Assembly: GCA_902780695.1 (NCBI GenBank)
Contig: CACZGM010000032.1
Span: 1-42,164 of the forward strand
Direction: 5' to 3'
DNA: 42,164 bases
From: an uncultured Ruminococcus sp.
Lineage (GTDB): Bacteria > Bacillota > Clostridia > Oscillospirales > Ruminococcaceae
The notes under the pieces are model-generated. The model saw only the letters and a program-made list of their open reading frames with translations, was not told the DNA's origin and did not search any database. A program made the translations under genes and the position numbers. Within the stretch, counting starts at the first letter, position 1. The number at the start of each line of letters is the position of its first letter. Below are positions 6,597-40,521 of the stretch, piece after piece.

Positions 6597-7433
6597 ATGG
6601 AAACCAATATGCAGATTTTTGAGAACGCACATTTCGGTAAGATCAGGACGCTCGATATTAACGGCGAGGTTTGGTTCGTTGGTAAGGATATATGCCTTGC
6701 TTTCGGTGATACGAACCACAATCGCAGCCTTTCAAGAGTAGATGAAGCCGATAGAAAGACAGAATACATTTCGACAAATGGAGGAAAGCAGCGCTTTACC
6801 ATAATCAATGAAAGCGGTCTGTATTCCTTGCTGTTTACAATGACTCCGCGAAAAGCTCACAAGGGGGTACGTTATGAGTACCCCCTTGGCGTTGAAGACC
6901 GAGTTAATCAGCTTCGTGAGTTCAAAAGGTGGGTCACTTCTGAGGTTTTACCGTCAATCAGGAAACACGGCGCTTATATCACAGACGAACTCCTTGAAGA
7001 GATCGCCGCAAACAAGAAAGCAGCTGAGAAGCTCTTCCGTGACCTGAAAGCCGAGAAGAAAAAGAATCGTGATCTGAAAGAACTGCTCGACGTAAGTGAG
7101 CCTAAGTGTGATTTTTACGACAAGGTTTTGCAGGCGCAGGGGTTAATACCGATGACGGCAATATCAAAAGATTACGGAATGTCCGCTACAAGAATGAATG
7201 CAATGCTTTATGCTTTTGGTGTTCAGTACAAGATGCACTCCGGTCCGTGGGTACTTTATGCTCCGTATCAGGATTTGGGATATACCAAAACAATAACTAT
7301 CTTCCCGCGATATGACCGTGAAAATCCGATACTCGTTATGTATTGGACTCACGCCGGAAGAGAGTTTCTTTACCGGTTCCTGAAGGAGCGCGATATTCTG
7401 CCGGTATCGGAAACGACTGATAATAACAACTGA
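6597..7433 (+). CDS. Bro-N / KilAC phage-antirepressor-like protein
   Basis: 278 aa. Residues 1-115 are a Bro-N domain (IRTLDINGEVWFVGKDICLAFGDTN, then NESGLYSLLFTM and FKRWVTSEVLPSIRKHGAYI). A lysine-rich coiled coil follows (about 130-165), and the C-terminus (about 168-265) is a KilAC-type DNA-binding domain (YDKVLQAQGLIPMTAISKDYGMSATRMNAMLY). Such proteins are antirepressors in phages and occur in integrative elements. GGAGG lies just before the ATG. The same operon carries mazF and the small genes that follow, so it may counter the XRE repressor or regulate excision. Domain calls are firm and the target is unknown. Confidence 0.92.
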   Translation: METNMQIFENAHFGKIRTLDINGEVWFVGKDICLAFGDTNHNRSLSRVDEADRKTEYISTNGGKQRFTIINESGLYSLLFTMTPRKAHKGVRYEYPLGVEDRVNQLREFKRWVTSEVLPSIRKHGAYITDELLEEIAANKKAAEKLFRDLKAEKKKNRDLKELLDVSEPKCDFYDKVLQAQGLIPMTAISKDYGMSATRMNAMLYAFGVQYKMHSGPWVLYAPYQDLGYTKTITIFPRYDRENPILVMYWTHAGREFLYRFLKERDILPVSETTDNNN

Positions 7434-7449
7434 AAGGATACTTAAAGCT

Positions 7450-7638
7450 ATGAAAACAGATATTTATGAGATCACGGTAACTCCGCTGAATCCTTCGGCG
7501 GCTGCGGAAAAGGCTTTGAAGGAATACAGCGAACAACTCAACAAAGCCTGCGAGATCGAACAGGCGTTCTACTTCAAGTACGGTTCATTTATGCCGGACG
7601 ATCTATTTCAGAAGATAGTTGAGATAATAACAAGATAA
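7450..7638 (+). CDS. Small protein, paralogue A of a tandem pair
   Basis: 62 aa, function unknown. The second half (LNKACEIEQAFYFKYGSFMPDDLFQKIVEIITR) matches the corresponding part of the 59-aa protein at 7716-7895 (KALEITCKIEKIFFKLHGELMPNELFNEVFDLIY) at many positions, so the two arose by duplication. It is mostly helical with no membrane segment. It follows the Bro-type gene by 16 bp and probably belongs to the same transcript. Confidence 0.65.
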   Translation: MKTDIYEITVTPLNPSAAAEKALKEYSEQLNKACEIEQAFYFKYGSFMPDDLFQKIVEIITR

Positions 7639-7650
7639 GCAATACGCAAA

Positions 7651-7682
7651 GTGCCGCAGGCGAATACCAACGCTTGCGGCAC
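7651..7682 (+). other. Strong hairpin between the two small paralogues
   Basis: GTGCCGCAGGCG and CGCTTGCGGCAC form a 12-bp stem with one GU pair and an 8-nt loop. No T-run follows, so it looks more like an mRNA stability or processing element than a terminator. Confidence 0.5.
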
Positions 7683-7715
7683 AGTTATATAAGGGTATGA
7701 AAGGAAATACATAAA

Positions 7716-7895
7716 ATGAGCAGAGCAAAGTTTTTAGCAGTAAAATACGCAAAGTACGATATAGGCAGGGTCACAAGCTATGACAAGGCGTTAGAGATAA
7801 CGTGCAAGATAGAGAAGATCTTCTTCAAGCTCCACGGCGAGCTTATGCCGAATGAGCTTTTCAACGAGGTCTTTGATTTGATATATGCAGGATAA
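7716..7895 (+). CDS. Small protein, paralogue B of a tandem pair
   Basis: 59 aa, beginning MSRAKFLAVKYAKYD, function unknown. It aligns over its last 35 residues with the 62-aa protein at 7450-7638, sharing the cysteine-isoleucine-glutamate core, the aromatic FF/FYF patch and the MP-(N/D)-(E/D)-LF motif. An AAAGGAAA site precedes the ATG by about 9 bases. It was probably made by duplication inside the element and may serve with its paralogue as a small regulator or recombination directionality partner, but nothing in the sequence proves this. Confidence 0.6.
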   Translation: MSRAKFLAVKYAKYDIGRVTSYDKALEITCKIEKIFFKLHGELMPNELFNEVFDLIYAG

Positions 7896-7924
7896 TAAAT
7901 ACAGTACATAAAGGAGCAGTTATT

Positions 7925-8287
7925 ATGAGTACCAAAGAGAAAAATGAGATAATCTCGCAGATATTTATGCTTCTGAGCAAGCTCGTTGAGTATGATGCCA
8001 CCAATGGAGCGAGTGCAATAACCGGGGTTCCTGTTTTGGTTCCAGAAGCTGAGCCTGTGACTCAGCCGGCAGAACAGAATAGCACTGGTCGCGATGAGCC
8101 GATGGAGATGCTCACAATCAAAGAATGCACTGAGCTTGTAAAAGGTCTGTCGAGCAATACAATCAGGAAGCTTATAGCTCGCGGCGAGTTGGATTATGTA
8201 AGAGCCGGCTGTGGTAATAATGGAAAAATACTCATTTCCAAAGCCAATCTTATAGCTTTGTTCTCCAAAAAGGGAGATAAGGCATAA
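7925..8287 (+). CDS. Excisionase-like helix-turn-helix protein
   Basis: 120 aa. The C-terminal half (about 60-118) is an excisionase/MerR-type winged helix: MLTIKECTELVKGLSSNTIRKLIARGELDYVR, then NNGKILISKANLIALF. The N-terminal 55 residues form a helix and a proline-rich linker. A small HTH protein of this kind directly before an integrase is usually the excisionase (Xis), which bends DNA at the attachment sites and favours excision. AAGGAG lies before the ATG. The integrase has its own promoter (8335-8363), so Xis and Int can be made at different times. Confidence 0.8.
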   Translation: MSTKEKNEIISQIFMLLSKLVEYDATNGASAITGVPVLVPEAEPVTQPAEQNSTGRDEPMEMLTIKECTELVKGLSSNTIRKLIARGELDYVRAGCGNNGKILISKANLIALFSKKGDKA

Positions 8288-13918: not shown

Positions 13919-14218
13919 TCACTTTATTTTCAGAAACTGAACGAATCCTGACAGTCTGAATACTTCCATTACATCGCTGTTTACATTGCAAACCGTAAAC
14001 GAGCCGCCGATATCCAGCATTTCCTGATCGATGTAGAGCATCACACGCAGTCCTGCTGATGAGATGTATGTTACTCCTGCCATATCTATAACGACATCGT
14101 TCACACCGTCTTTATTTGCAACATATGCTTTTTCCAGGTCTGTGGAGGAAAGCGTATTCAGATCTCCTTCTACTATCAGTTTCAGGCTGCTGTTGTCTTT
14201 TTCTGCTGTTACTGTCAT
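13919..14218 (-). CDS. STAS-domain anti-anti-sigma factor (RsbV/SpoIIAA-like)
   Basis: 99 aa, a single STAS domain: LIVEGDLNTLSSTDLEKAY, then DVVIDMAGVTYISSAGLRVMLYIDQEM with the conserved phospho-acceptor serine in TYISSAGLR. Such proteins bind an RsbW-type kinase when unphosphorylated and so free a sigma factor or other target; PP2C phosphatases reactivate them. I start at the ATG at 14218, which follows GAGGGTGA; a GTG at 14227 is less well placed. It stands alone, with its own promoter at 14281-14309. The SpoIIE phosphatase at 32877 and the MATE-ATPase fusion at 36193 are possible partners in this window. Confidence 0.9.
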   Translation of the reverse strand: MTVTAEKDNSSLKLIVEGDLNTLSSTDLEKAYVANKDGVNDVVIDMAGVTYISSAGLRVMLYIDQEMLDIGGSFTVCNVNSDVMEVFRLSGFVQFLKIK

Positions 14219-14280
14219 TTTTATCACCCTCGCATTATATTTGATTCAGTGCCTGTTCGGTAATTAGTAATAACAAATAT

Positions 14281-32473: not shown

Positions 32474-32510
32474 AACAGCTTGCTGTGATTATCACAGCAA
32501 GCTGTTTTTT
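32474..32510 (+). terminator. Terminator of the che-gtrA operon
   Basis: AACAGCTTGCTGTGA (32474-32488) pairs perfectly with TCACAGCAAGCTGTT (32492-32506), loop TTA, followed by a run of T. A strong intrinsic terminator. Confidence 0.92.
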
Positions 32511-32851: not shown

Positions 32852-32878
32852 ATCTCTTGAAATCTCTTAAAATCTCTC
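32852..32878. repeat. Three 10-bp iterons ATCTCTT
   Basis: ATCTCTT at 32852 and 32862, and ATCTCTC at 32872, exactly 10 bp apart, ending on the stop codon of the phosphatase gene. It may be a protein site or part of a transcript end. The function is not known. Confidence 0.55.
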
Positions 32879-34490
32879 AGATCTTTCCGTTATATCTGAA
32901 GCCGAGCATGGTGAGGTCATCGAACTGTGGAGCGCTGCCGACGAAGGCATCGACGGCTTCTTTCACGTTGCGGAGTATTGTTTCGGGCTCGGCGTCGGGC
33001 TGTTTGTTGAGGGCTTCGAGCATTCTCTCGTTTCCGAAAAGAACATTGTTCGCGTCTGTAGCCTCGGGAACACCGTCGGTGTAAACGAATATGCTGTCAC
33101 CAGGGAAGATCTCAAAATCGTGCTCGCGGAAACGCATACCCTCCATAGTTGCAACAGCGGGGGAGTGACGGTATTCGACAAGCTCATATCTGCCGTCTGC
33201 GCGTCTTAGGGTCGGGTGCTCATGACCGGCGTTCGCTGCCTTGCCTTTACCCGTGGATATCTCGATTATAGCAAGCCATACCGTAACGAACAGCTCGGCA
33301 TCGTTGCCCTCACAGAGCTGTTCATTCGCGCTTGAGAGTATTTTTGCAGGGCTGAGTTCTCCGGACATTGCACGGTCCTTTATAAGCGTTTTGGCTATTA
33401 CCATGAACAGCGCGGCGGGAACTCCCTTGCCTGAAACGTCCGCCATTACAAGAGCGATGTGATCGTCGTCAATGAGGAAGAAATCATAGAAGTCGCCGCC
33501 GACTTCCTTTGCGGGCGTCATTGTGGCGTAAATATCAAATTCCTTTCTGTCGGGGAAGGGAGGGAAAATGGAAGGAAGCATATTTGCCTGTATCTGTGTG
33601 GCAACGTTGAGCTCCGCACCGATACGCTCCTTCTCCGCTGTGACCTTGGTGAGGTTGTCGATATAGCTGATGATATCGGACTCCATCTTTTTTACGGAGC
33701 GAGCGAGAACGCCTATCTCAAATCTCGCATTCACAGCCTTGATATCGCTGCCTTCCTCGTGGTCGTCGGCAAATCTCTCCGCTTCCTTTGTTATTTCGAG
33801 GATAGGCGATACTATGCTGCGGTTGAGGTAAAGCGCGTAGGCGAGTATCGCGATAACGAGAAGTCCGGCGGAGATCAGGATAACGTGGCTTACATAAGTG
33901 GAACGCGCCTCTTCGAGTATCGTCATCGGCTTCTGCACTCCGATTACCGCGACTACATTTCCGTTCGAGTCCTTTACACCGAGTCCGGCAGTCGTATGAG
34001 CCTCGGTCTCCGTGTATGTATAGAGGTACTTTTCGGCTCTGCCGCCAGTCTGCATGATATGCTCAAGGTCATCTGTGTACTGGGGGTCAAGGTCGGCGCT
34101 TACCATACCGAGAGGATACCTGTCAAATCCGAGCTTCGGGTTTACCGAATCATAGATGTAGGTTATATTCCTGTAATTGTCGGATATGGCACCGACATAG
34201 ATAAAGTCACAGTCGGACGAAGCCGTTAGGTCATCCAACTGTTTCTGTATGCGGTTGAATTCGTCATCGGGCGTGTTAGCGGCGAGGTAATCCGCGAATT
34301 TGTCCGGGTTGAGATATGTTTTCGCGATCTCCGCGGTCTCGTATGCGCTGTTGTTGTACTGCTTTTCAAGTACCGCAGTGAACTCCCGGTAACCGAGATA
34401 TGATACCGTCGATGTCAGGACCATGATAACGAGTGCCATGCCTGCGATAAGAATAATAGAAATGCCTTTTTTATGCTTTTTGCGTTCCAT
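32877..34490 (-). CDS. Membrane sensor phosphatase: Cache-like, HAMP and SpoIIE/PP2C domains
   Basis: 537 aa. TM1 at about 9-31, an extracellular sensor of about 145 residues (Cache-like), TM2 at about 200-220, HAMP at about 222-275, a short coiled coil, then a SpoIIE-type PP2C domain at about 300-537. Metal-binding motifs are visible: KEVGGDFYDFFLID, LVMADVSGKGVPAALFM, FVYTDGVPEATD and FDDLTMLGF. It should dephosphorylate a STAS protein in response to an external signal, like RsbU/RsbP. It is the last gene of a five-gene coupled operon; its ATG overlaps the GH3 gene by 20 bp. The STAS protein at 13919-14218 is one possible substrate. Confidence 0.94.
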   Translation of the reverse strand: MERKKHKKGISIILIAGMALVIMVLTSTVSYLGYREFTAVLEKQYNNSAYETAEIAKTYLNPDKFADYLAANTPDDEFNRIQKQLDDLTASSDCDFIYVGAISDNYRNITYIYDSVNPKLGFDRYPLGMVSADLDPQYTDDLEHIMQTGGRAEKYLYTYTETEAHTTAGLGVKDSNGNVVAVIGVQKPMTILEEARSTYVSHVILISAGLLVIAILAYALYLNRSIVSPILEITKEAERFADDHEEGSDIKAVNARFEIGVLARSVKKMESDIISYIDNLTKVTAEKERIGAELNVATQIQANMLPSIFPPFPDRKEFDIYATMTPAKEVGGDFYDFFLIDDDHIALVMADVSGKGVPAALFMVIAKTLIKDRAMSGELSPAKILSSANEQLCEGNDAELFVTVWLAIIEISTGKGKAANAGHEHPTLRRADGRYELVEYRHSPAVATMEGMRFREHDFEIFPGDSIFVYTDGVPEATDANNVLFGNERMLEALNKQPDAEPETILRNVKEAVDAFVGSAPQFDDLTMLGFRYNGKI

Positions 34491-36150
34491 TGATTTTCTT
34501 CTCCTTAAATTGTTCGAACCAGATTATCCGTTCTTTGTCGTTAACTATACGCAGCGGCTTGGACTGATCCGTGCGCCTGCCTTCGCTCCTGCATTTTTCG
34601 TCATATTTCGCTATGGTACCCATGTGCAGTTTTGTTATGGAGGGCTCGGATATCTCGAAGACCTCTCTTGCAAAACTGTAATTAATGCTTGATTCACGAA
34701 GGCAGCTGTCAAATATGGAAGGAAAGCTCTCGTCCGTTTCGTCCGGCGTTTCGAGGAAAAGCTCGTACCCGGGCGGGAAGATATCGTAGTTTCCCGAAAT
34801 GAAGTAGCCGTTTGCGGTGATCCCTGTCTTTTTCATGAAGAGCTGCATCGCATTCTCAAATTGCAGTGTGTTCAGCTTTTCGTCCGACACGTTCAGAACT
34901 ACATCCTTGCGGTAGCATATCCTGATTATCGGAGCTTCCCCGTATTTGCCGGTCACTTCGACTATATCAGCCAGGTCGTACCTGTATAGTCCGGAAACGG
35001 TCGTAATTATAAGGTCGTATCTTTCGCCTTTCTCCAGCTCACGCATGGTGACGAGCTCTTTCGGTTCGCCGAGCTTGTTGATGTGCCGGAATTCAAAGTA
35101 GCAGGCATCGGGAAGCAGAACATACCTGTTTTTCAGGGACATCTCCGGGGCAATGCCGATGATGCTCTCGGAGGCGGCATACGCAAAATTGTGTATCGGT
35201 ATATCACCGATCATATTTCCGATATTGTCTCCGTGTGTTCCGAACAGGTCGCCGGTTATCAGCTTGATGTATTTCAGCTTCGGCCATATCTTTCTGAGCA
35301 TATTGTTCTCAAGATCACCGACAGGCAGCGAGCGCAGATACTCTGCGCGTTCCGGAGCCGGCGGCAGGTTTTTCTTTAGGTAATCCTTCCAATGTTCGCT
35401 GACATTGAAGCAGTCGCTCACCGTGCCGTTTTCCGTATCCCGGAGCAGACTGTCCCAGTTGTTGAGTATGAATCTGAATATCGGCGAAGCCCGGTGCGCA
35501 AATATGCCGTGTATAGCTGTGATATCCGGGTCCGCGAGCGCAAACCGTACCTTGACATAAAGCATATTGTCGAGGTCGTCGGGGAACATCGCTTCCTCCG
35601 GAGCCGAGAACACCGAGCAGTCAAGCCTGCCGTCCTTAAACGCGGTCTGGTAATATATACCGGAGCGGATCCCGTTAGGCGTTCCGTCGGGCATCTCCGT
35701 CATAAACACATCACCGAGACTGAAAATGTGTCCGAAAAGCTCATTTTCGCTGTTATGCGGTATAGCTTCACTTATCATGCCCGCTATCGCGTCCTCAAAG
35801 TACAGCTTCTGCAGGTCGATGTCCTCTCTGCATATCGGGATATATTTCGGTTCTCCGGTGCTTCCGGAGCTTATGTTGTAGAATACGGGCGGCGCGGCTG
35901 TGAGTATATTCCGCTGACCTTCCGTGATCTTTCCGATGTATGTGTCGTAATCGGAAAACGTTGTGAGCGGAACCTTGCCGCGGTAGCTTCCGATATCCGA
36001 AACAGAGGAAAAACCGTACTTCTGTCCATACTCGGTGCCGCTGTTTTCCCGCATGATACGTCTGATCAGCTTATCCTGCTCCTCGTATGCGTTGCCGCAC
36101 ACAGAGCGGAAGTGAGCCAGAGCATTATGTATTTCAGATGAACTGTACAA
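34471..36150 (-). CDS. GH3-family adenylating enzyme
   Basis: 559 aa. GH3 proteins adenylate a carboxylic acid and join it to an amino acid or other amine; plant members act on auxin and jasmonate. The ATP motif is ISSGSTGEPKYIP near residue 95. The second is YAASESIIGI near 330 and the third TTVSGLYRYDLADIVEV near 405. The C-terminal domain (about 440-559) is present. Substrates of bacterial GH3 enzymes are mostly unknown. It lies between the MATE-ATPase fusion and the sensor phosphatase, 42 bp after the first and overlapping the second by 20 bp, so its product may be the cargo of the transporter or a signal read by the phosphatase's outer domain. Confidence 0.9.
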   Translation of the reverse strand: MYSSSEIHNALAHFRSVCGNAYEEQDKLIRRIMRENSGTEYGQKYGFSSVSDIGSYRGKVPLTTFSDYDTYIGKITEGQRNILTAAPPVFYNISSGSTGEPKYIPICREDIDLQKLYFEDAIAGMISEAIPHNSENELFGHIFSLGDVFMTEMPDGTPNGIRSGIYYQTAFKDGRLDCSVFSAPEEAMFPDDLDNMLYVKVRFALADPDITAIHGIFAHRASPIFRFILNNWDSLLRDTENGTVSDCFNVSEHWKDYLKKNLPPAPERAEYLRSLPVGDLENNMLRKIWPKLKYIKLITGDLFGTHGDNIGNMIGDIPIHNFAYAASESIIGIAPEMSLKNRYVLLPDACYFEFRHINKLGEPKELVTMRELEKGERYDLIITTVSGLYRYDLADIVEVTGKYGEAPIIRICYRKDVVLNVSDEKLNTLQFENAMQLFMKKTGITANGYFISGNYDIFPPGYELFLETPDETDESFPSIFDSCLRESSINYSFAREVFEISEPSITKLHMGTIAKYDEKCRSEGRRTDQSKPLRIVNDKERIIWFEQFKEKKINGTQKA

Positions 36151-36192
36151 AGAATTCCTCCTTGTCCCGGCACAGGATGTTGAAGTGCCTGT

Positions 36193-37929
36193 TTATAACA
36201 GAATGATAAGCGCATTCATTCCGAGAACGCGTCTGTAAACTGTGGATTTTACAAGTTTTTTTATCATCACTATTCCCATAAACTTATCGTCGTCATCGTC
36301 GAATGAAAGCGGGTCAAAGTCAATGCCGTCATATCTTATGCGTATGCCCGTGGCATCGTCGAGCGCAAATACCCTTATGTCGAAATTGATGTCTGAAGTG
36401 CCGTTTTCCTGCGTGATGAGCGTCAGCATCTCTTCCATAGCGAGGCTTATACGCACGGTCTGCTTCATATTCATTCCGTTTTCTTCACAGAATCCGGTTA
36501 TCTTCTCACACGCGGAGCAGATGTCGTTCGGGTCGCCGATGAGCGAGAAATTTATGACCTTTCCGCTCTTTTCAAGGGACAGGTCCTCAAGCAGGTATCT
36601 GCTGCTGTTCTTTATTCTTTTGTGAGCTATACCCGTGACAGCAAACCATACCGCAAGCGTAAGTATCTCCGCTGCCGGAAGAAACAGCCACGGTATCATG
36701 TCGGTGATGCAGAATATGAAGATCGCTGCAGCCGCGAAAACGAAGGAGCGCAGTGTTATGATCATATTCGACAGCATCGGACGTGAAGATATGTTGTAGA
36801 AAGTTGAGAACATACTGTTCATCAGAGCGGGGAAAAGGCTCACCGCAAGACACAGCATAGGTACGAACATCGGTATATTGATGCCGTACATTATACGGAT
36901 AAGGTCGGAGCCGGCAGTGATCAGAAGTCCGAAAAGCGCCGAGAACACGATACCGCTGCAGAACTCGATATTCATCACTATGCGCAGGCTCTTGGTATCA
37001 TGCTCACCGTGGAACACACCGAGCATTGCCGAGCCCGCCTGCGGTACGCCTACGGTCACCGCGTCCGAAAAAGCGGCAATGCCGTTTATTACGGAGAATA
37101 CCGCGAGAGCGCCGCTTCCGCCATATTTTGCGAGAACGTAATTCATGAACAGCAGCTTTATTGTCTGCATAAGGTTGTTTATCGCTGCGGGGCTACCGGT
37201 AGCGGCGATCTTCAGAAGCTGCTTGCTTGTGGGGAGAGCTGCCTTCAGTCTGAAGGATGTCTTTCCGCGGTGAAGTGCGAAGAAACCGAGAACACAGGCG
37301 ACGGCGGTTGAGATCACGCTTGCGAGCGCCGCACCGAAAACGCCCATATCCATTACGAACATAAATAATATGTCGAGCAGCACATTTCCGATGCCCATAA
37401 CAGTCATCATGACCGTTACGGTCTTGTTTTTGCCGTCAAGGCGCAGAAACCAGAACGGTATGTATATCAGTATCTTCGGAGCCGCGCCGATAAGCGTGAC
37501 TATCGTATAATCAAACACCATAGGGCGCACAGCATCATCGGCGCACAGCAGCTCCGCTATCGGAGCGGAGAGGAAAATACCGGCGGCCATTGCCGCTGCC
37601 GAAGCTATAAGGCAGGTCGATACTGCCGTGCCGTAGAATCTCTGCGCTTCATCGATATTGTCGTCTCCTATCGCCTGCGAAGCGGATATCGCCGTACCGG
37701 ACACGAAGAACGAGCCGAGTATGCAGAGAACAAGATACACCGGGATACAGAGATTTATGGCTGCAAGACCGCCTTCGCCGGCTTTCTGACCTACGATGAT
37801 ACCGTCGGCTATGATATTTATGCAGCCTCCGAGTATGGTTAGCATACACGGTATAAGCGCGGAGTTGTATGCTTTTGTCAGGAACTTCTTATCCTGAACC
37901 AGTACATTGTTGCGAGATGTCTTATCCAT
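36193..37929 (-). CDS. MATE transporter fused to a C-terminal RsbW-like ATPase domain
   Basis: 578 aa. The first 440 residues are a MATE (NorM/DinF-type) exporter with 12 predicted helices (TILGGCINIIADGIIVGQKAG to the tenth to twelfth helices at about 385-430). Ordinary MATE proteins end near 450. Here about 125 more residues form a HATPase_c_2-like domain: MKQTVRISLAMEEMLTLITQ (N-box position, where the usual Asn reads Thr), IRIRYDGIDFDP (G1) and KFMGIVMIKKLVKSTVYRRVLG (G2 lid). RsbW-type domains are kinases of STAS proteins or sigma inhibitors. A transporter tied to one is, to my knowledge, undescribed. It overlaps the PrsW gene by 8 bp. The fusion has no sign of frameshift or stop. Confidence 0.9.
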   Translation of the reverse strand: MDKTSRNNVLVQDKKFLTKAYNSALIPCMLTILGGCINIIADGIIVGQKAGEGGLAAINLCIPVYLVLCILGSFFVSGTAISASQAIGDDNIDEAQRFYGTAVSTCLIASAAAMAAGIFLSAPIAELLCADDAVRPMVFDYTIVTLIGAAPKILIYIPFWFLRLDGKNKTVTVMMTVMGIGNVLLDILFMFVMDMGVFGAALASVISTAVACVLGFFALHRGKTSFRLKAALPTSKQLLKIAATGSPAAINNLMQTIKLLFMNYVLAKYGGSGALAVFSVINGIAAFSDAVTVGVPQAGSAMLGVFHGEHDTKSLRIVMNIEFCSGIVFSALFGLLITAGSDLIRIMYGINIPMFVPMLCLAVSLFPALMNSMFSTFYNISSRPMLSNMIITLRSFVFAAAAIFIFCITDMIPWLFLPAAEILTLAVWFAVTGIAHKRIKNSSRYLLEDLSLEKSGKVINFSLIGDPNDICSACEKITGFCEENGMNMKQTVRISLAMEEMLTLITQENGTSDINFDIRVFALDDATGIRIRYDGIDFDPLSFDDDDDKFMGIVMIKKLVKSTVYRRVLGMNALIILL

Positions 37930-38569
37930 TGTTGTTTCTCGCTTTTCTGCGCCTTATCAGCAATCTGACCGTGAGCGGAATGAACACCGCCGCGGGCATT
38001 ATAAGCGCCGCAGCTCGGAACTGCGACTGCACGAGCACATTGAAGGTCGCGTGGAATATGATAGAGAGTGTAAGTAACGAGAACGTTCCGCAGAAGAACA
38101 GCTTCCTGCGCTTGCGGATATAGCTCATGCCCATGCCGACCGCAGCTGTGCAGGCACCGTGCATCAGCGCGGCACCGACAACTCTGGTCAGCGCCCAGGC
38201 AATCGTCACATTTGATATCTGCTGTGTAAGTATTACCGCGTTTTCCAGCACCGCAAAGCCTACGCCGAGCGCGAACGCTATCGACAGCAGTGTTTCTCTG
38301 TCGTCGGAGAACAGCACCGCGAAATACAGCACCGGTATCGCTTTCATAAGCTCCTCGCTTATCGGGGTTATGTTGGTGGTGACATACATACCGTCGCCGC
38401 CGAAAAGCTCCAGCATCCACTGGTTCACACCGCCCGCAACAAGGCAGACAGTGGCTCCGATTATCATATAGCCGAGGAACAGCTTCGATCTTTTGTCAGG
38501 CAGGATAAAAAGCATGGGTATCATCGGAAGCGCTATGCATATATAGAGTATGCCGCTCATTTGCTCCAT
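37922..38569 (-). CDS. PrsW-like intramembrane protease
   Basis: 215 aa with about seven membrane helices. PrsW cleaves the anti-sigma factor RsiW in B. subtilis as the first step of a membrane stress pathway. The signature residues are visible: Glu72-Glu73-x-x-Lys76 in ITPISEELMKAIPVLY, then ALGVGFAVLENAV, MHGACTAAVGMGM and SIIFHATFNV, giving the EExxK and two His motifs of the family. It overlaps both neighbours (8 bp with the MATE fusion, 13 bp with the preceding membrane protein), so translation is coupled. No RsiW-like substrate is encoded nearby. Confidence 0.9.
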   Translation of the reverse strand: MEQMSGILYICIALPMIPMLFILPDKRSKLFLGYMIIGATVCLVAGGVNQWMLELFGGDGMYVTTNITPISEELMKAIPVLYFAVLFSDDRETLLSIAFALGVGFAVLENAVILTQQISNVTIAWALTRVVGAALMHGACTAAVGMGMSYIRKRRKLFFCGTFSLLTLSIIFHATFNVLVQSQFRAAALIMPAAVFIPLTVRLLIRRRKARNNNG

Positions 38570-39219
38570 GCCCGCACCCCCTTGTCAAGAGCCGGTATCA
38601 GTGCGGCTGATACTATTGTTTCCAGTATGATCGCCGTTACGATAAGCCATTCGGTCTGATATGCTATCGCTCCCATTTCAAGCATACAGAGTATTCCGTA
38701 AGAGAACGCGAGTATGTTGAACAGCCGCAGACAGCTTACAACGCCGTAATCTATATCGGGAATGAATATATGCTTCATGTGGAAGTACGATGCGGAACCG
38801 ATGGACAGCGCGACTATTCCGTCCGTTATTTTCTCAACATCGGTAGTGTCACTCAACACTATCGCCGCATACATCAGAACTGTAAAAATAGTGCCGGAAA
38901 GTGCTATTATGCGGTATTTGCGTAAATCTCTGCTTCCGTCGTCCACAAGCGAGTCTATCTGGCCGTAGTTTGAAGAGAAGAAGAACGAGAACGCGCCTAT
39001 CGTGCCGAGTGTGCCGACATGGAATATACCCATGACCGGCAGTCCGGTGATATGTCTTGCGAGGATATACGCGCGTCCGAGCATTATACAGCCCACACCG
39101 AGAACTATCATCGACGCGTACAGGGGTCTGTGCGGTTTGAGGTACCGCACGGCACCGTAGGTGAACCCACCGGCTGCGGAAAGAGTCAGAGCAATATTAA
39201 GAATAAGAATAGGATCCAT
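38557..39219 (-). CDS. Multi-TM protein of unknown function heading the operon
   Basis: 220 aa with about seven predicted helices (LILNIALTLSAAGGFTYGAV; LYASMIVLGVGCIMLGRAYIL; ITGLPVMGIFHVGTLGTIGAFSFFFSSNYG; and four more). A charged loop, DSLVDDGSRDLRKYR, joins helices 3 and 4. I recognise no family. The frame is open to 39279, but I start at the ATG at 39219 where CGGAGA lies 5 bases before. It is the first gene of the operon and overlaps the PrsW-like gene by 13 bp. It could be a sensor, a PrsW partner or a 7TM-type receptor. Confidence 0.8.
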   Translation of the reverse strand: MDPILILNIALTLSAAGGFTYGAVRYLKPHRPLYASMIVLGVGCIMLGRAYILARHITGLPVMGIFHVGTLGTIGAFSFFFSSNYGQIDSLVDDGSRDLRKYRIIALSGTIFTVLMYAAIVLSDTTDVEKITDGIVALSIGSASYFHMKHIFIPDIDYGVVSCLRLFNILAFSYGILCMLEMGAIAYQTEWLIVTAIILETIVSAALIPALDKGVRAWSK

Positions 39220-39282: not shown

Positions 39283-39311
39283 ATTATATCACAAGTCGTC
39301 CGTTTTTGCAA
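39283..39311 (-). promoter_or_regulatory. Promoter of the 7TM-PrsW-MATE-GH3-SpoIIE operon
   Basis: Minus strand: TTGCAA (39311-39306), 17-bp spacer and TATAAT (39288-39283). The start is near 39276 and the leader about 57 nt. Confidence 0.78.
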
Positions 39312-39624: not shown

Positions 39625-39795
39625 GCGTGAAAGAAAGGAAGTGAATGACTGTCCCGACGGTCTCGGGCGGATAGAAGGGGAGCGCCTTGTGTCTGTATTT
39701 TGCGAGGGAACCCGTGTTTCGGGGTGAGAGGGAGAAAGTGATCTCCGACCGGCGGAATGATATTATTCCGAAAAAAGCGAAAGAAGGAATTACTT

Positions 39796-40521
39796 ATGAA
39801 GAACTCGAAGGTTCTCAAAATGGCAGTGCTCTCCATGCTCGTTGCTCTCGGTGTCGTCATTTCCCCGATACTGCGCGTGGAGGGTATGTGCCCCATGGCA
39901 CATTTTATCAACATCGTATGCTCGGTACTGCTCGGACCGTGGTACTCGCTGCTGTGCGCGACGCTTATCGGCATTATCCGCATGGCGCTTATGGGCATAC
40001 CGCCGCTCGCGCTTACCGGTGCGGTATTCGGCGCTTTCCTGTCGGGCGTTTTTTACAGAATGTCAAAGGGCAGGATAATTGCCGCCGTTCTCGGTGAGGT
40101 CATCGGCACCGGCATTATCGGCGCAATCGTTTCTTACCCCGTGATGACTTTCCTGTGGGGAAAAGAGGGTCTCAGCTGGCTGTTTTATATCCCGTCGTTC
40201 ACCGCGGGTACGCTCATCGGCGGCAGCATAGCTTTTATCTTCCTGAGAAAGCTCGCAGATAACGGAATGCTCCCGAAAATGCAGGGTGCTCTCGGTTCAC
40301 AGACCTTTTCCGACAAGCGGAGCGTCGTATCCACAACATTAACGATAGCCGCGTTCGGCGCGATAGCGTTCATCGTGACAGAAATACTTATGAACATTTT
40401 CAGCCTTACCGACCCGATCTGGCAGTATATAGCCTACGGTTCGCTCGGGGCATTTGCCGCGGCGGCGGTGATATATTTCATCGTGAAAAAAGCGGGGAGG
40501 GAGAAAGCGGTTGATAAATGA
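39796..40521 (+). CDS. thiW: ThiW, thiazole-precursor ECF transporter S component
   Basis: 241 aa with about six membrane helices. ThiW proteins import the thiazole precursor hydroxyethylthiazole. The sequence has the family start (VLKMAVLSMLVALGVVISPILRVEGMCPMAHFINIVCSVLLGPWYSLLCA). It would pair with a shared ECF energy module encoded elsewhere. The ATG at 39796 has AAGGA 9 bases before it; a longer frame from 39757 lacks a site. It is the first gene behind the TPP riboswitch. The next gene, thiM, starts 11 bp before its end, so the two are coupled. Confidence 0.92.
   Translation: MKNSKVLKMAVLSMLVALGVVISPILRVEGMCPMAHFINIVCSVLLGPWYSLLCATLIGIIRMALMGIPPLALTGAVFGAFLSGVFYRMSKGRIIAAVLGEVIGTGIIGAIVSYPVMTFLWGKEGLSWLFYIPSFTAGTLIGGSIAFIFLRKLADNGMLPKMQGALGSQTFSDKRSVVSTTLTIAAFGAIAFIVTEILMNIFSLTDPIWQYIAYGSLGAFAAAAVIYFIVKKAGREKAVDK

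Follow-up and report, generated by a model that had tools for sequence, protein, structure and literature searches.

What joins a GH3-family acyl-acid amido synthetase to a MATE exporter and a SpoIIE-type sensor phosphatase in a Ruminococcus? The question is raised by five consecutive genes on the minus strand (32877 to 39219) of contig CACZGM010000032.1 from an uncultured Ruminococcus sp. The stretch of DNA analyzed here, which we call the window, comprises bases 1 to 42164 of this 56.8-kb contig, part of a 3.29-Mb genome. All five open reading frames (ORFs) were confirmed, in the order putative seven-transmembrane (7TM) membrane protein, PrsW-like protease, MATE exporter with a C-terminal tail, GH3 enzyme and SpoIIE-type phosphatase (Table 1). 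An initial annotation had read them as a single chain in which the GH3 enzyme makes an acyl-amide, the MATE protein exports it, the phosphatase senses it or another outside signal through a Cache domain, and phosphatase, RsbW-like domain and PrsW-like protease pass the signal to a sigma-type partner switch. We found that the MATE-tail, GH3 and SpoIIE genes are a real conserved unit, frequently with a STAS protein and an RsbW-like HATPase encoded beside it, and that their clustering is not due to chance, whereas the 7TM and PrsW genes are not part of the conserved set.

A conserved unit of MATE-tail, GH3 and SpoIIE genes

GH3 genes were patchily distributed among the relatives of the window genome, being found in 16 of 197 genomes of a family sample, 16 of 71 of a genus sample and 13 of 394 of an order sample (the three samples overlap, and the window genome is counted in each). 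A scan of one genome per species, covering 84,980 species, added loci from the best 80 of 404 relatives; among these 80, the named relatives with the most similar GH3 locus were 'Ruminococcaceae bacterium UBA3215' (70% identity) and then 'Ruminiclostridium sp. RGIG1478' from goat abomasum (54%). Removal of nine duplicates from 116 GH3 loci left 107 distinct ones, six of which, with short GH3s, were left out of the tree. We refer to the loci with a BLAST score of >300 bits as clade A, a limit that agrees with the tree and gives 42 distinct loci, including the window. Neighboring genes were labeled with hidden Markov models built from the same operons, and a Pfam check covers part of these labels only. 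Outside the window, ORFs were called mechanically, and overlaps there are approximate.

In clade A, the MATE-tail gene was directly upstream of GH3 in 36 of the 40 loci readable on that side, and the SpoIIE gene was next downstream in 34 of 36. The core order was kept in 31 of the 33 loci readable on both sides, window included; the co-occurrence in relatives that the initial annotation expected of all five genes thus holds for these three and fails for the other two. Near these 33 loci we found a HATPase, stand-alone or fused, in 22, a short STAS gene in 22, an amino acid ABC transporter with a tailed ATPase in 11 and PrsW in 3. The usual order was STAS, MATE-tail, GH3, SpoIIE, HATPase, and 19 of the 31 core loci had both STAS and HATPase nearby. 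Among the 71 genus genomes, a MATE-tail protein of the GH3-associated type (at least 774 bits; next match, 294) occurred in exactly the 14 genomes carrying a GH3 of the linked type (Fisher test, 4e-15, uncorrected for relatedness).

The association extends in part to other GH3 enzymes. In a second clade (17 tree rows), the MATE gene was upstream as in clade A in six cases, the order was GH3-MATE-SpoIIE in five, a SpoIIE gene without an adjacent MATE was found in five (in L082 the contig ends there), and one locus was cut by a contig end. No MATE-tail stood beside GH3 in a third group of 41 rows, which is not free of signaling parts: in L028, GH3 is followed by genes for a STAS protein and a SpoIIE phosphatase, and a STAS and a PP2C gene lie nearby on the opposite strand in L125. 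In a distant group, the gene after GH3 encoded a GGDEF-HD protein in five of six distinct rows (L035, L036, L037, L038 and L041; L039 lacks one), with a 7TM region recognized in four of the five, a short overlap with GH3 in four loci and a 36-bp gap in L035. A full STAS/MATE/GH3/SpoIIE-HATPase set was also present in L105, an assembly named Spirochaetaceae, in which transfer or mis-binning is possible.

The MATE exporter carries a degenerate HATPase tail

The tail of the window protein matched HATPase_c_2 weakly (0.0038, below the Pfam cut-off), and profile comparison showed it to be homologous to stand-alone HATPases (hhalign probability, 95.9; E value, 5.8e-9). The fusion of a MATE protein with an ATPase-related domain, as initially annotated, is real, but the residues for ATP binding are gone. 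In the alignment, Leu stands at the position of the N-box Asn and Tyr at that of the G1 Asp, and the lid is shortened. Of 48 rows adjacent to GH3, one was unreadable and another was a paralogue one gene away from GH3, which keeps both residues; all of the other 46, the readable GH3-linked copies, have lost both the Asn and the Asp. Within a set of 126 distinct domains, both were kept in 44/44 stand-alone and 6/6 SpoIIE-fused HATPases. Twenty-one MATE-HATPase rows were not beside GH3, and three of these (L201, L228 and L229) were GH3-type MATE proteins cut by a stretch or contig end or located on a different contig than their GH3; of the 18 paralogues left, 10 kept both residues.

We rejected the tail as an active RsbW kinase on the grounds of this uniform loss, and because the ATP-binding residues are missing, kinase activity of any GH3-linked tail is unlikely. 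The tail has nevertheless been maintained. Its mean identity across 22 sequences was 55%, versus 56% for the MATE body, and the ratio of nonsynonymous to synonymous substitution rates (dN/dS) was 0.02 to 0.13 in the seven computable of eight pairs, indicating purifying selection. A domain conserved in this way yet devoid of its ATP-binding residues suggests a binding platform. In L143 (11597 to 13303), MATE and tail were called as two adjacent genes, by a natural split or a frameshift.

Sensor phosphatase, STAS and HATPase

The phosphatase has two transmembrane segments (residues 9 to 27 and 203 to 221) flanking an outer region, followed by HAMP and PP2C domains; HAMP, weak in the window protein, matched 27 of 27 orthologues. 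The Asp positions of the PP2C domain, which we take to be metal binding, were invariant in alignments of 17 and of 27 orthologues. The Cache domain initially assigned to the outer region was not recovered: the window protein gave no match to it, and it was absent from the 25 families, out of 44, that were listed for the 27 orthologues. The layout with two transmembrane segments would permit one, and the distant relative L028 has a Cache domain.

Short STAS proteins in GH3 loci kept a Ser, presumably the phosphosite, in 31 of 32 cases (the row of L067 is unmatched and looks frame-shifted). Neither a STAS nor a HATPase gene is present inside the window operon. Profile searches of the window genome gave 18 STAS and 8 HATPase-like matches, and the top-scoring STAS and HATPase genes lie side by side on another contig, C72. 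The STAS there keeps the conserved Ser, the HATPase is the window genome's copy of the stand-alone kinase, and no phosphatase was found in the 16 kb fetched around the pair. An orphan STAS-HATPase pair is also present in G197 and G218; these two genomes and the window genome are the three with PrsW near the unit, and none of them has a short STAS or a HATPase close to it, G218 having a 412-residue protein with a STAS domain before the 7TM gene. The C72 STAS shares 70 to 75% identity with operon STAS proteins and 85% with its orphan counterparts in G197 and G218. In FastTree phylogenies, which have several weak supports, the three orphan pairs grouped together by HATPase (support, 0.95), and the three orphan STAS fell in a small clade with two operon STAS (0.91). 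Judging from these sequences, the C72 pair is a likely partner in trans.

STAS genes were also found beside MATE-tail genes outside GH3 loci (L231 to L233). The partner switch named by the initial annotation is thus borne out as the context of the GH3/MATE/SpoIIE unit, but its sigma-type output is not: apart from one locus (L098, see below), no sigma factor was noticed in the conserved unit, on loci to which no sigma model was applied.

Other STAS proteins were seen along the way. Some have ca. 400 residues, with a leucine carboxyl methyltransferase domain in L064 (13844 to 15082) and a phosphotransferase (APH) domain in L099 (257 to 1447), and the window genome has several copies of this length in a row (L193, contig C2). 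The window itself holds an orphan STAS gene of 102 codons with a YISSAGL motif (13919 to 14227, minus strand), distant from the operon STAS group.

Related tails on amino acid ABC transporters

An amino acid-type ABC transporter with a tailed ATPase was encoded beside 12 of the 42 clade A loci (SBP_bac_3 and BPD_transp_1 were checked with Pfam in L027, L098 and L111). The tail of its ATPase aligned with the MATE tail (hhalign probability, 98.1; E value, 1.2e-13) and with HATPases (probability, 96.9). Among 20 distinct tails linked to a nucleotide-binding domain (L068, identical to L098, was counted once), the Asp was lost in all 20 and the Asn in 17, and neither residue was kept in the 12 tails beside clade A GH3 units or in L077.

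Tail matches of at least 96 bits, not each of which was typed, occurred in 13 of 14 linked-GH3 genus genomes versus 5 of 57 others; this line was chosen after seeing the list, and a limit of E ≤0.001 gives 24 of 71 genomes, some through MATE tails. The window genome has tailed ABC transporters on contigs C118, C58, C11, C54 (fused) and C32 and a stand-alone tail on C35. The C32 copy lies on the window's own contig but outside the window (L295, 7249 to 10667), ca. 14 kb past the 7TM start. Of eight chosen named genomes, seven have a clade A GH3. Matches were strong (1.3e-39 or better) in six of these, and the only match in the remaining one, G624, was to a 584-residue frame, probably its MATE. 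Acetobacterium bakii, also one of the eight, gave no tail match.

The GH3 enzyme and its likely product

The window GH3 protein matched the three Pfam GH3 domains (N, M and C; 3e-53, 3e-21 and 9e-11), and a profile built from 21 GH3 relatives aligned almost end to end with plant GH3 structures (4b2g, 4.9e-94). Its motifs SSGSTGEPK, YAASE and GLYRYDLAD align with the three nucleotide motifs given in an excerpt of PMC12493201, which also reports that a bacterial GH3 enzyme, OlsH, makes N-acyl ornithine. These domains and motifs support the earlier assignment to the acyl-amide synthetase family, and the enzyme probably makes acyl-amino acid amides. We rejected an identification as OlsH itself: NCBIfam NF052613 was the best match but reached 67 bits against a cut-off of 620. 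No product for GH3 enzymes of gut Clostridia appeared among the matches listed in our literature searches.

We also discarded function by association for GH3 enzymes as a whole, as the typed neighbors in the 41-row unlinked clade are mixed (condensation domain, ABC exporter, glycosyltransferase, HAD, RimK-like ligase, acyltransferase and four without a family). The MATE-HATPase paralogues have more telling neighbors. In L092, L095, L097, L100 and L114, they stand beside enzymes of the nonribosomal peptide synthetase (NRPS) type, assigned by position and, in L095 and L100, checked with Pfam and found to end in a terminal reductase; L097 and L100 come from the cultured commensals Lachnospiraceae bacterium 3-1 and Petralouisia muris. 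In the window genome itself (L299, contig C65, 373 to 8000), an NRPS-type gene with condensation, AMP-binding, carrier and terminal reductase domains (1,955 residues in the stretch fetched) overlaps a MATE-HATPase paralogue by 4 bp. These neighbors, together with the GH3 groups linked to sensors, make us lean toward a molecule made for a purpose. That GH3 genes stand beside three kinds of sensor fits a signal molecule and is not proof of one. GH3 enzymes require an amine (an amino acid, for instance), possibly delivered by the linked transporters.

The 7TM and PrsW-like genes form a separate pair

The initial annotation had placed these two genes in the signaling chain. Orthologues of the PrsW-like protein (at least 65% identity) were found in 12 of the 71 genus genomes, with the 7TM gene directly before PrsW in 12 of 12. 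Only two loci, the window and one in G218, have the pair adjoining the GH3 unit, with 342 bp between PrsW and MATE in G218; in G197, ca. 3.2 kb with opposite-strand genes lie between them. In the remaining 9 of the 12 genomes, a linked GH3 is either absent or on a different contig from the pair, G234 and G242 having no GH3 at all. Of the 33 clade A loci with both sides readable, 30 had no PrsW nearby. We therefore rejected the five genes as one conserved unit; the pair travels separately, and two units are joined locally in the five-gene operon. PrsW was commoner in linked-GH3 genomes (9/14 versus 3/57; Fisher test, 5e-6, uncorrected for relatedness), which may reflect one subclade.

E72, E73, K76, E109, H137, H173 and N177 were invariant in the 10 orthologues, out of 12, that were aligned, and we assume the Glu and His positions to be the catalytic motif. 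The score against the PrsW equivalog (NCBIfam NF033739) was 27.4 bits, below its cut-off of 225. The 7TM protein matched no Pfam family, and hydropathy at one threshold gave four strong segments, which leaves the number seven in its label provisional.

Layout of the locus

Of the four junctions, three are overlaps (7TM/PrsW, 13 bp; PrsW/MATE, 8 bp; GH3/SpoIIE, 20 bp), one fewer than initially counted, and the fourth is the gap of 42 bp between MATE and GH3, as noted before. A promoter-like site and a hairpin (Table 1), both consensus matches only, fit a single transcript. Divergent from the operon lies a gene for a ThiW-like thiamine-precursor transporter (39757 to 40521, plus strand).

Table 1. 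Features of the five-gene locus in the window
Feature	Position	Strand	Remarks
7TM membrane protein	38557..39219	-	Paired with PrsW-like gene; accessory
PrsW-like intramembrane protease	37922..38569	-	Pfam PF13367, 2e-17; accessory
MATE exporter with C-terminal degenerate HATPase (RsbW-like) tail, 578 aa	36193..37929	-	Pfam MatE, 1e-17
Degenerate GHKL/HATPase tail, MATE residues 447-578	36196..36591	-	hhalign to stand-alone HATPases
GH3-family acyl-acid amido synthetase, 559 aa, TTG start	34471..36150	-	Pfam GH3 N/M/C
SpoIIE-type sensor phosphatase, 537 aa	32877..34490	-	SpoIIE, 9e-44; weak HAMP
Promoter-like site before 7TM gene	39283..39311	-	Pattern scan, 10/12 consensus positions; consensus match only
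15-bp hairpin after phosphatase gene, terminator-like on both strands	32474..32506	.	Pattern scan only

Proposed mechanism and alternatives

We tentatively favor, at somewhat under an even chance, a mechanism in which the amide made by GH3 is exported by the MATE protein and a SpoIIE/STAS/HATPase switch acts on transporters through their tails. The GH3 enzyme would adenylate a carboxylic acid and couple it with an amino acid or some other amine, and the MATE protein would export the resulting N-acyl amide. The phosphatase would respond to a ligand outside the cell, possibly the exported amide, by dephosphorylating the STAS protein, which the RsbW-like HATPase would rephosphorylate. The MATE tail, hardly able to bind ATP, would dock the STAS protein, whose phosphorylation state would set transport without a sigma factor. 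The STAS pool could also act on the ABC tails, coupling amino acid uptake to product export. In the window genome, STAS and HATPase would probably be supplied by C72, and the PrsW and 7TM proteins would be neighbors only. A wider version we hold to be doubtful: that Clostridia of the gut and rumen share a transporter family (MATE and amino acid ABC) whose degenerate RsbW-like tails receive phospho-regulated STAS proteins and so gate transport, with, at the present locus, an acyl-amino acid signal made by GH3, exported and read back by SpoIIE, as a counterpart of the hormone conjugates of GH3 enzymes.

Several observations weigh against the favored mechanism. Loci are related to one another, so that the counts are not independent, and 6 of the 31 core loci, including the window, have neither a short STAS nor a HATPase nearby. 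In the HATPase tree, the orphan pairs are not next to the operon HATPases of the nearest relatives. With 18 STAS matches, further SpoIIE-STAS-HATPase sets and several paralogues each of SpoIIE and HATPase in the window genome, the pairing with C72 is a candidate one. A profile search of the PDB with the MATE tail gave two chance-level matches and nothing credible. Three of the 20 ABC tails still have the Asn: the second copies of L103 and of L148 and, in the window genome, the copy at C54. Two clade A loci from Hungatella, L106 and L110, keep GH3 without MATE or SpoIIE, and GH3 is preceded there by a GHKL kinase and a LytTR regulator (L106, 7576 to 11662, assigned with Pfam; L110, 5792 to 9833, by position and length), a pair that we label Agr-like. 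An ABC exporter occupies the MATE position before GH3 and SpoIIE in L101 (135 to 2363). Finally, in L098 a sigma-70-like gene (7390 to 7926) follows a radical-SAM gene and stands 4 bp before STAS.

This last gene would suit a classical switch acting on a sigma factor encoded elsewhere, the tail being a sponge for STAS or HATPase or a structural or dimerization domain. The parts of the partner switch look intact, and among solved structures, RsbW comes closest to the HATPase. Beyond L098, no sigma gene was noticed at the loci, a weak point given that no sigma model was run, and a sigma-only output leaves something unexplained, because degenerate tails recur on two unrelated transporter classes; we consider this explanation rather unlikely. 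Nor do we think it likely that the unit serves detoxification or nutrient handling, with a harmful plant- or host-derived acid conjugated by GH3 and expelled by MATE, the phosphatase sensing stress and no signal molecule involved. The molecule names of the matched structures show plant GH3 enzymes conjugating benzoates and hormones, many MATE models are those of drug exporters, and the source titles of relatives name rumen and gut. Against it stand the MATE-HATPase paralogues beside NRPS-type enzymes with a terminal reductase and the pairing of other GH3 groups with AgrC/AgrA-like or GGDEF-HD proteins.

Two further explanations carry far less weight. In one, which we judge very improbable, the GH3 product is an amino-lipid of the membrane, as for OlsH, and the MATE protein acts as a flippase for lipids. 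NCBIfam ranks OlsH first among its matches, and an acyltransferase gene is near in one relative (L111), but the score is only about a tenth of the OlsH cut-off, and an O-acyltransferase is not in the usual gene order (no OlsI model was run). The other, the original chain with PrsW and 7TM as relays between the signal and a sigma-type partner switch, is the least probable of all. It can point to the gene overlaps and plausible single transcript of the window, to the enrichment of PrsW in linked-GH3 genomes and to STAS or PP2C genes near some PrsW loci (L260, L262 and L268); the separate location of the pair in most genomes, the distances in G218 and G197 and the clade A loci without PrsW all argue against it.

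Relation to known systems

Each part of the unit is of a known kind, and the whole is a variant of partner switching; among the matches listed in literature searches, there was no paper on this gene set or on a MATE-anti-sigma-like fusion. The GH3 protein resembles JAR1, GH3.12 and OlsH in its near full-length profile match and three nucleotide motifs. Unlike these enzymes, it is encoded in an operon with an exporter and a signaling module, and it does not reach the OlsH cut-off; the operon offers a genetic handle on bacterial GH3 products in gut Clostridia. The PrsW-like protein shares the Pfam domain and the conserved Glu, His and Asn positions with the PrsW family but reaches 27 bits against the NCBIfam cut-off of 225, and it lies outside the conserved unit.

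As in the SpoIIE/SpoIIAA/SpoIIAB and RsbU/V/W systems, a PP2C sensor phosphatase, a Ser-bearing STAS and a HATPase with an intact ATP site are co-encoded in many relatives. Unlike in those systems, no sigma factor was recognized in the unit (no sigma model having been run on the loci), and a degenerate HATPase is fused to MATE, with related ones on ABC ATPases. If the favored mechanism is true, a phospho-switch best known for gene control may here control transporters directly. SypA and HmpV are described in an excerpt of PMC8256260 as noncanonical STAS proteins with targets not identified; the present STAS proteins are like them in that their output is not accounted for by a known sigma factor, and differ in that a candidate target, the transporter tail, is encoded beside them. 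A conserved receiver-like tail beside STAS genes would thus be a concrete target for such orphan outputs. The nearest parallel for transport is MlaB, a STAS protein that, according to an excerpt of PMC7367683, binds and stabilizes the ABC ATPase of MlaFEDB. Both cases have a STAS protein acting on a transporter through an ATPase subunit, as is predicted for the present one. MlaB, in that excerpt, binds the nucleotide-binding domain itself, with phosphorylation undetermined, whereas here there is a HATPase-like tail together with genes for a kinase and a phosphatase, so that, if the mechanism is true, transport control of the MlaB type would be extended to a full phospho-switch.

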